Source of the DNA: Saccoglossus kowalevskii
Lineage: Eukaryota > Hemichordata > Enteropneusta > Harrimaniidae
Reading direction: 5' to 3'
Assembly (NCBI RefSeq): GCF_000003605.2
Contig: NW_003137822.1
Coordinates: 141,979 to 166,195, forward strand
Length of the DNA: 24,217 nt
Shown: in pieces, positions 4,881 to 7,900 of the stretch
How the letters are laid out: each line of letters begins with the position of its first letter
Numbering within the stretch: position 1 is the first letter of the stretch
The notes under the pieces: model-generated
Databases searched by the model: none
Told to the model about the DNA's origin: nothing
The model's input: the letters and a program-made list of their open reading frames with translations, nothing else
Made by a program: the position numbers and the translations under genes

Positions 4881-4982
4881 TCACAACCTCCAAGCATTCT
4901 TCATCATAAGAATAAAATAACAATCGCTGTCTATTGAGGCACTCACGCCAGAATAGTAATTTATAAATTCTTCATTAGTTAT
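4881..4982 (-). CDS. CAPSL: CAPSL alternative last exon 4c (distal)
   Basis: Acceptor CCTCACAG, then 33 codons and TGA. The exon begins [18 protein letters not shown] and ends MMKNAWRL. It is the most divergent copy (26 of 33 identical to 4a, 25 of 33 to 4b), with Ile176, Ile182, Ser186 and Arg207. The EF4 closing Glu, the SASID segment and MMKNAW are all kept. No frameshift or stop interrupts it, so it does not look like a dead duplicate. A plus-strand open frame across 4542-4937 is its antisense shadow. Confidence 0.9.
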
Positions 4983-7900
4983 CTGTGAGGAAGAAACAAA
5001 CATACAAAAAAATAAATATTTACTCATCGGCTGTACAAGTTTAGTGGTTCCACATTTGTTCCAGTATATTTATTTGTTAAGCCAAACTATTTTGGGGCAT
5101 GATGAATGTTAAGTTTGCACCTGCTGGAATCAGTACCGACTTTGTAAAAATTAATACTTTGATGCAACATGTGCCTTATCAACAATCAATCATGCAGAGA
5201 TCCATGTGCTTTTTTTTTATGTCTCTGCAGATGGTGATGCATTAACCATCACTGCCAACAATATATATATATATTTAATGCAATCCCTAGAAATTTCAAT
5301 TGATCTCAACTGCATTTATCTCTAACCTCATGTATGTATGTAATTTTTAATTTTAAATACATGTACAACAATTTTGAGTACATGCACAGAACACAAGTGT
5401 GGAATCACAAATTACAAAATTGAGTTGTGTAGAAACAACAAAACGAGGTAGCTGTAAGGTTTCTATACTGGCACAAGTAGAAATAACTGGAACATTGTGA
5501 ATTAACTACAGAATACCCGTCACCATTATATAACCACATTTATAGTTCTATCACCAAGACTACACCTTATCACCATTAAGTTCAATTGTGCATGATACTG
5601 TGTAGGACTTTATTCACAATAAGTTGGCAATATTTGATGTGTTCCCAACCACATATATAACTGATACTATGAGAATATGTCAACATTGAATAAAACATGT
5701 GATTAAGATTAAAGCAGTATGTGGGTTTGATTGTGATTGCCAGAATCAGTGTACTGTTATGATTCTATATTGATGTTGGAGTGAATACAGCAGCAGCAGA
5801 AAACAAAACCTGACAGTTTTTTAACAATTTTTAGTGCTTTACTTGTACTTTTCAACCCACTATCCTATTTATGAAAACAAATATGCAAATCATATTTATA
5901 TGTGAATTGCAAGAACAGTATGTAAGAGGCATTAAGCTGTGGGAAAAAACATGATTACAAAAATAAAGTCAGCCATCCAAGTCGCCATCATCTTGGTAGC
6001 CATGTTGATCAATTTTTGTCGGTAGTAGCCAGTTGGCTAAGAAATGAACCTCTTAATCCCCCACATCTGCATGGCTGGACTGTACTATGCATTGATATAT
6101 ATGGGAATCACACAATTAAATAATATGAATGAAATAAACGCAGTGAGAATAATAGATGTTAATGTTAGGAATGAAAGGATATGGGATAATAGTGCATTAC
6201 GATAGTGATTGATAATGAATCAGATTAGTATACATTAGCTTAGGTCCACATGGTTTCAGTTACCTAATTCAATTTCCAGGCGTTTTTCATCATAGTAATA
6301 AAATACACGTCGGAGTCAATGGAAGCACTTACACCACAATAATAGTTCTGAAACTCGTCCTCGGTGACCTGAGGATTGAAATAGCAACTACCACCATTAA
6401 GCTAAGTGTTACATACACACACACGCACTATCTTACCAACAGTCACAGATACAATCTCAATTAGGTATTTTGAGTTTTAGTTATAATACTGTAATCTGTA
6501 ATACTAGTACTGTAGTACATGTATGCACCCCTCAGTTCAAAATATACCACATGTCATACATGGCACATGTACAGACTGGGGTATAATACGTGACCCTCAT
6601 CTTGATAGTATCTGTCACTATTTGTGTGGTCAGTACTTCAACCAGCCGTTAAACCAAGAATATCCAAACTTACTCTTTTTCAAAGAAGATATTCAGGAAT
6701 TGGCCAGTACTACCGTAGATATCCAGTACAAGAGAAATGTTCAACTTTGACAAGTGAGCTAGTAGTTCAGCTGATATTATATGCATTATATGTACGAGTA
6801 AAAATGTATAAAAAAAGTTTCTCTGCACTGTAATAATCTTTAGATTTCTGAAATTTTGTTCCATAAACATTTGTATATTTGCATATTCCTAATATTAAAT
6901 ACAGCTGTGACTAATGCCAGCAGACAATGCTGAACACCTCTTCTCTGTACAGTAGTGCAAAGGATTATAATAAACAATGGTAATAATAAAGTACGCCTAC
7001 ATGAAATTACACATTCACAGTTTCCATGCATTTTTCATCATAAGTATAAAGTAACAGTCCTTATCAATCGAAGCGCTTACACCACAGTAGTAATTTTCAA
7101 ATTCATCTTGAGTCACCTGTAATAATTATTAGTTATGGCATGACATTCTACATACATTATCACCACACCAACAATGATCACAAATTAATGAATCTAATAT
7201 ACAGCAAGGATAAGTAAAGAGAAGGTACCGTAAAATACTTTATTTTCGTTTGGAATTAATTTTCCCTATTTTCGCTGAAGGAATGATTCAGTGAAAATAA
7301 AATCCAGCGAATATACCCTTTTTCCTATATTTTACATTCAACTTGTCAAAAATCAGTGAAAATAAATTCCATACAAAACGCCCAATACGTCTTTTCAGCG
7401 AAAATTAATTCCAGCTAAAATAAAGTATTTTATAGTAATTGGAGGATGAAATGTATTGTCAAATTTGATAAAGATATATTAAAGAGTTAATAATCAGAGT
7501 TCTATAATCTCAAATTCAAGGCATAAAAGTGCTTCATGTAAAACGTTGCGTTTTGAGTTCCTTTACAATGACAAACAGATGTGAACACATTATGTTGACA
7601 TATTAAAAGAGGCTTCAATACGGCAATTTCTAAGTTCCCTTGAAGGGGGCAAGTAGCAGAAACCATTTGGAACAGGTGGTGCAATTATTACGTTGATGTC
7701 CTAAACTGAATTAACTATTTTTAAAATAAGTACTTGTAATATGTGTTGAATTTTCAGGCCGTTTAGAATGTTATATTAACCTGTAAATAGTGATTTTAAC
7801 AAGTTCATATGTATGTATATTATGGCAATTGATATAGCCAAGATTTGGAGTTTTGGCAAATGTCAGGAAAAATAGACAACTTAGTACCTTGTTAGTTAAT

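Follow-up and report, generated by a model that had tools for sequence, protein, structure and literature searches.

A CAPSL gene with three last coding exons in tandem

The window, i.e. the whole stretch of 24,217 nt that was analysed, corresponds to bases 141979-166195 of contig NW_003137822.1 in the Saccoglossus kowalevskii assembly (572 Mb, 4830 contigs). It harbours on the minus strand a CAPSL (calcyphosin-like) gene in which coding exons 1 to 3 are present once and the last coding exon is present three times in tandem. The exons are as follows (the slash marks the exon end):

12428-12564, minus strand: CAPSL exon 1, coding part, ending in ...GIKGLGR, donor AAG/GTAAGT (tblastn with the joined protein, and splice sites)
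10655-10832, minus strand: CAPSL exon 2 (EF1-EF2), donor AGG/GTAAGT (tblastn and splice sites)
9530-9739, minus strand: CAPSL exon 3 (EF3 and the first part of the EF4 loop), donor AAG/GTAAAT, common to all three last exons
7015-7116, minus strand: last exon copy 4a, 33 codons and TGA; weak pyrimidine tract
6264-6368, minus strand: last exon copy 4b, 34 codons and TAG, directly followed by a donor-like TAG/GTAACT
4881-4982, minus strand: last exon copy 4c, 33 codons and TGA; strong pyrimidine tract

Together, exons 1 to 3 comprise 175 codons, and the splice sites examined are all of the GT/AG type. Each of the copies 4a, 4b and 4c has an AG acceptor, is entered in phase 0 and ends with its own stop codon. 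A first-pass annotation of this DNA had proposed three exon blocks with the exon 3 donor at 9530, and our coordinates, phases, acceptors, stops and translations are identical to those it gave. Its assignment of the gene to CAPSL was borne out by the alignment of the 4a-containing protein to the calcyphosin-like chain of PDB entry 11yj (11yj_1A), which we take to be human CAPSL: 208 of 208 residues are aligned (1-208 to 1-208, E 2.7e-99), including the N-terminus and the GVSAS..AWKL tail. The next relatives are calcyphosin CAPS (3e3r, E 4e-60) and, after it, RIB22 (8g2z, E 7.4e-36), an entry presumably from Tetrahymena. Within this calcyphosin family the homology extends over nearly the full length, including the C-terminal segment. 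In Pfam the protein matches EF-hand families, PF13499 in two stretches (E 3.9e-22) and PF13405 in three. The window has no Rfam match at gathering scores, and its three NCBIfam matches were all under the cut-off and not meaningful (best 48.2 bits against 120, for an EF-hand-containing bacterial model).

Splice signals, poly(A) signals and the choice of the last exon

Our preferred reading, to which we give a probability of roughly 0.8, is that a single CAPSL gene can use any of three tandem, functional versions of the last coding exon, giving rise to three C-terminal isoforms. In its main line this agrees with the first-pass annotation, which had proposed a mutually exclusive choice of last exons. 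The single donor of exon 3 would be joined to one of the three acceptors at 7116, 6368 and 4982. With a stop codon in every copy, the C-terminus would be determined by whichever copy is joined first, and the products would be proteins of 208, 209 and 208 residues with residues 1-175 in common. We infer that all three copies would be spliced, with the choice depending on the cell type. Mutually exclusive internal exons, in contrast, do not fit the locus, as each copy ends in a stop and no CAPSL coding exon was found further downstream (untranslated 3' exons aside).

When donors were scored with a human-type matrix, exon 3 (AAG/GTAAAT) was the weakest with 8.6, compared with 12.4 for exon 1 and 10.1 for exon 2. 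The acceptors of the last exons differ in their pyrimidine content: the longest pyrimidine run is 2 nt at 4a, 5 at 4b and 10 at 4c, and the pyrimidine fraction is 0.52, 0.62 and 0.76, respectively (0.62 at the constitutive exon 2). That 4a has the poorest tract and 4c the best one suggests a regulated competition, in which a near but weak acceptor would be set against a far but strong one. A single site able to pair with all three acceptor regions, as in PGRP-LC, was not seen among the inverted-repeat pairs between 4750 and 9600 (25 of 26 listed, without control).

Neither AATAAA nor ATTAAA is present in the 646 nt between 4a and the acceptor of 4b. For comparison, 944 overlapping 646-nt stretches of the window contain 2.05 such signals on average, and 14% contain none. 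A non-canonical AATATA at 6879 is a possible signal for 4a. After 4c, where the region from 4880 down to 3000 was scanned, the first canonical signals are ATTAAA at 3377 and then AATAAA at 3193. By consensus match only, the following candidates were retained:

5609-5614, minus strand: AATAAA, 649 nt after the 4b stop and with GT/TG dinucleotides downstream; candidate for 4b, possibly also for 4a
3188-3193, minus strand: AATAAA, 1687 nt after the 4c stop; candidate

Because no canonical signal lies between 4a and 4b, a choice of acceptor within a common 3'-UTR is just as conceivable as three separate last exons. The copies would then be alternative 3' splice sites leading into common 3'-UTRs, and an acceptor would be chosen without a choice of poly(A) site: mRNAs with 4a would run through 4b to the AATAAA at 5614, or all mRNAs would run to about 3190. 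This variant yields the same three proteins and is compatible with the preferred reading. The AATAAA at 5614 with its GT/TG-containing downstream region is in its favour; on the other hand, the AATATA at 6879 could serve 4a, and the missing canonical hexamer is only mildly unusual, given the 14% of control stretches. We rate this variant at somewhat under even odds. In either case 4a may use a non-canonical signal (AATATA) or the 3'-UTR of 4b. Further, the donor-like TAG/GTAACT across the 4b stop (6266-6258, minus strand) scores 6.9, a value reached by 2.1% of the 2857 GT sites in the window, and sites with scores of 7.4 and 6.8 are found downstream of 4a and one of 6.8 downstream of 4c (same matrix). 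Since donor-like sites thus follow all three stops, onward splicing in the 3'-UTR would be possible for any copy on the basis of consensus.

Age of the copies and selection on them

The peptides encoded by the copies are identical at 28 of 33 residues (4a/4b), 26 of 33 (4a/4c) and 25 of 33 (4b/4c), and between 4a and 4b 15 of the 28 matching codons differ synonymously; both counts for 4a/4b are exactly those of the first-pass annotation, from which it had argued for an old origin of the copies and for purifying selection on them. At shared degenerate residues the same codon is used at 10 of 25 sites in 4a/4b, 9 of 23 in 4a/4c and 8 of 22 in 4b/4c, and the chance means simulated under the GC3 of each copy are 9.4, 9.2 and 7.9. 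The synonymous codons agree no more than by chance, and therefore the synonymous sites are saturated. According to the Nei-Gojobori method, synonymous differences exceed their share without selection (binomial P 2e-8 for 4a/4b, 6e-7 for 4a/4c and 2e-5 for 4b/4c). A pairwise codon model, evaluated on a grid with kappa fixed at 2, gave lower limits for dS of 2 (4a/4b), 1.25 (4a/4c) and 1 (4b/4c). In this model the dN/dS ratio omega, a check which the first-pass annotation had proposed, has its optimum at 0.02 (range 0.01-0.08), 0.05 (0.02-0.12) and 0.08 (0.02-0.2), in the same order, and omega = 1 fits worse by 19.1, 14.7 and 10.9 log units.

At the DNA level the coding parts of the copies are identical at 68-73 of 99 positions, while ungapped comparison of the flanks (200 nt before the acceptor and 200 nt after the stop) revealed only 47-63 identical positions of 200. 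Among the 18 residues that are invariant in human CAPSL, human CAPS and the paralogue described below, 17 are kept in 4a, 4b and 4c, the exception being V176I in 4c. When RIB22 is added, ten invariant residues are left, and all are kept in the three copies. Well-kept residues, saturated synonymous sites, a low omega and unlike flanks together indicate that all three copies are old and under purifying selection, in agreement with the earlier argument. Decayed copies are rejected on account of omega and the intact invariant residues.

It could still be argued that one copy is used and that the other two are relics of old duplications, and the weak acceptor tract of 4a would suit this explanation. 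However, the frames, the stops and 17 of the 18 family-invariant residues are intact in all three copies despite the saturation of synonymous sites, and omega is far under 1 in every pair, so that we consider relics improbable. Tandem last exons that have lasted until synonymous saturation are strong evidence of three distinct, selected protein endings.

One gene or several

The copies were also picked up, unprompted, by a repeat search as a direct repeat of 106 nt in three copies. The 99 coding nucleotides of 4a match 4c at 73 and 4b at 72 positions without gaps, and the best match elsewhere in the window, on either strand, reaches 46. In the whole genome the 4a peptide has four matches, namely 4a, 4b, 4c and one on contig C3655, where a paralogue is located.

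Tandem gene duplication is common, and a paralogue does exist, so 4b and 4c might be the last exons of separate tandem CAPSL genes whose other exons are nearby or unassembled. This was also what the first-pass annotation had named as the finding that would speak against it. A tblastn search with the whole protein, which covered the window, 10 kb on each side of it and the stretches from C3655, detected exons 1 to 3 only once in the window; it revealed no copy of them between the last exons and no CAPSL exon match in the 10-kb flanks on both sides. An exon search of the whole genome, in which 40 candidates were scored, yielded 29 matches with an E-value of 1 or less: six belong to this gene, three to the paralogue, and the other 20 show 26-39% identity. 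Matches above 50% identity are thus the nine in the CAPSL gene and its paralogue. Own exons 1 to 3 for 4b and 4c were therefore found neither between the last exons nor 10 kb downstream of the window nor elsewhere in the 572-Mb assembly, and the sole exception with such exons, the gene on C3655, has its own exon 4. Separate genes are hence very improbable, even less probable than relics, and a tandem gene duplication with upstream exons for each copy is rejected for the same lack of exons 1 to 3 at 4b and 4c. The locus instead has the features of tandem duplicated alternative 3' exons of the tropomyosin type: adjacent homologues in the same phase, each with its own stop, behind single upstream exons. 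An assembly artefact, with haplotypes or repeats stacked in tandem in a draft of 4830 contigs, is next to impossible, since haplotypes would be nearly identical, whereas the copies differ in a quarter or more of their coding positions and have unrelated flanks.

The paralogue and the order of duplication

The gene on contig C3655 is a diverged paralogue with its own exons 2 and 3 and a single exon 4 near the contig end, in contrast to the three in the CAPSL gene. Its exon 1 was not found by tblastn of the C3655 stretches, and the 10 kb beyond its exon 4 contain no sequence that resembles this exon. No related sequence in bacterial or archaeal contigs was confirmed.

With 82 of 99 identical nucleotides, 4a is closer to exon 4 of the paralogue than to 4b or 4c. 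The two (7116-7018 and L006 131-33) use the same codon at 14 of 22 sites, with 7.9 expected by chance (simulation P 0.006); for 4b and 4c the agreement with the paralogue is 5 and 6 of 22 sites, which is no more than chance. In the comparison of exons 2 and 3 between the genes the corresponding values are 22 of 33 and 24 of 44. Because its codon agreement with the paralogue about equals that of exons 2 and 3, 4a may represent the original copy and have changed at the same pace as the other exons of the gene. In the codon model dS between 4a and the paralogue ranges from 0.5 to 2 and is thus below that of exons 2 and 3 together (3-8); the Nei-Gojobori values are 0.85 for 4a against 1.5 and 2.2 for exons 2 and 3, and this contrast in dS is not robust. 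At residues 203-204 all three copies have K-N and both the paralogue and human CAPSL have R-T, which suggests that the triplication took place within this gene. The three topologies for 4a, 4b, 4c and exon 4 of the paralogue fit almost equally well, with differences of at most 0.32 log units.

Variable residues and calcium binding

The tails differ at nine positions (176, 178, 179, 182, 186, 194, 196, 200 and 207), the very list that was given in the first-pass annotation together with the proposal that the differences may tune the Ca2+ affinity of EF4. The proposal is weakened by our comparison. The last exon starts at position 8 of the EF4 loop, and the earlier ligand positions are located in the common exon 3. 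Moreover, 4a, 4b and 4c all have E180, the ligand at loop position 12, as well as T177, and all nine variable positions also vary among four relatives (human CAPSL, human CAPS, the paralogue and RIB22). The tails may tune it subtly, but a gross switch in Ca2+ binding between the tails appears unlikely because the glutamate at loop position 12 is kept in all three. An on/off EF-hand switch of the alpha-actinin type is likewise not supported, as there is no copy without E180. A role of the tail differences in contacts with partners or with a lattice seems likelier than Ca2+ tuning.

CAPSL in cilia

CFAP20 is an inner-junction protein of ciliary doublets, and PDB entry 11yj contains, besides it and tubulin beta-4B (TUBB4B), 40 chains of CAPSL. 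The entry is thus a ciliary microtubule assembly with abundant CAPSL, presumably of human origin. Searches for tektin (with one exon-sized fragment as query) and SPEF1 gave 21 distinct and 5 sequences, respectively, none of them from 11yj. The protein described here is accordingly homologous to chains in ciliary microtubule structures, i.e. to CAPSL in 11yj and to RIB22. The title of a reference in a preprint (PMC13082021) names RIB22 in a ternary complex that inner proteins of the A-tubule form in Tetrahymena cilia. CAPS and CAPSL are listed among proteins found in cilia (PMC13096173), and in an echiuran worm Capsl has emerged from co-expression as a candidate hub gene for ciliogenesis (PMC10380512). 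A non-ciliary role is suggested by human CAPSL variants tied to retinal vessel disease, according to the passages of PMC11392532.

Based on these observations, the tails probably adapt the C-terminal lobe of CAPSL to different partners or types of cilium, and not the Ca2+ ligands themselves. It is tempting to speculate further that, by way of three spliced C-termini, the gene provides distinct ciliary microtubules, such as those of sperm, larval band and epithelial cilia, with distinct CAPSL subunits, a proposal that is doubtful at present. If true, it would amount to a splice code for the decoration of doublet microtubules, such as was found for no calcyphosin in the literature searched. The gene offers a natural comparison in a ciliary Ca2+-binding protein, with the same protein carrying three tails and nine variable residues. 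Should the tails serve in different cilia, the role of the C-terminal lobe of CAPSL in axonemes would become directly testable.

Comparison with known duplicated exons

Tropomyosin is a coiled coil and thus a different protein from CAPSL, and the duplicated EF-hand exons of alpha-actinin are internal. A further possible precedent, amphioxus troponin C, was not found in the titles, abstract starts and passages of the open-access literature searched. Tandem duplicated 3' exons that lead to homologous C-termini are well documented: in human, C-termini are exchanged in 77 of 236 events with tandem-duplicated exons, and three such exons each are present in TPM1, Drosophila Tm1 and C. elegans lev-11 (PMC9741552). 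Like CAPSL, the tropomyosin genes have three adjacent homologous 3' exons for alternative C-termini; in that paper they are treated as real splice events, whereas splicing of the CAPSL copies is deduced from their sequence. In alpha-actinin (ACTN1/ACTN4), according to passages of PMC9741552 and PMC9177970, duplicated exons also swap part of an EF-hand, with the difference that only one of the two exons keeps Ca2+ binding, while in CAPSL all three exons keep the glutamate at loop position 12 and are terminal. Human capping protein beta has homologous 3'-terminal exons, too, and is cited to illustrate such exons with several poly(A) sites (PMC3228551), whereas the poly(A) signal of CAPSL 4a is not evident. 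Homologous terminal exons are discussed in passages of PMC3228551 and PMC9013439.

To our knowledge, tandem last exons are known in none of CAPSL (11yj), CAPS (3e3r) and RIB22 (8g2z). The first-pass annotation knew of no description in calcyphosins either, and among the matches listed in our search of the open-access literature, judged by title, abstract start and passages, there is no account of a calcyphosin gene with a duplicated last exon. Thus, the architecture is known from tropomyosin, alpha-actinin and capping protein beta, and the calcyphosins are apparently a new family for it. The surprise is moderate, as other families already have such genes.

Other observations

Head-to-head with the CAPSL gene, a neighbour is located on the plus strand at 17192-17725 and 17979-18413; parts of these two frames match PF01048 (E 1.5e-13 and 9.3e-20), and it looks like methylthioadenosine phosphorylase (MTAP). 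The open frames at 1222-1557 and 1633-1911 (minus strand) had no Pfam match at E 0.05. A short dispersed repeat of the TACTGTAAAATACTTTATTTTAGC... type is present in four copies and in both orientations (2873-2998, 7226-7443, 16676-16866 and 19616-19720), and our guess is that it is a non-autonomous mobile element. Tandem arrays are found at 23911-24217 (34-nt units), 15600-15741 (42-nt units) and 518-687 (62-nt units).

In the mitochondrial contig of the assembly (C4830), whose codon reading tentatively suits a hemichordate and where genes were named by eye, COI lies on the strand opposite to five other genes. In these six genes AGG codons are absent, AAA occurs at lysine sites and TGA encodes Trp. 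AGA presumably encodes Ser and is present at an ND1 site that we assume to be conserved, and ATA occurs at COI sites where the human protein mostly has Ile.
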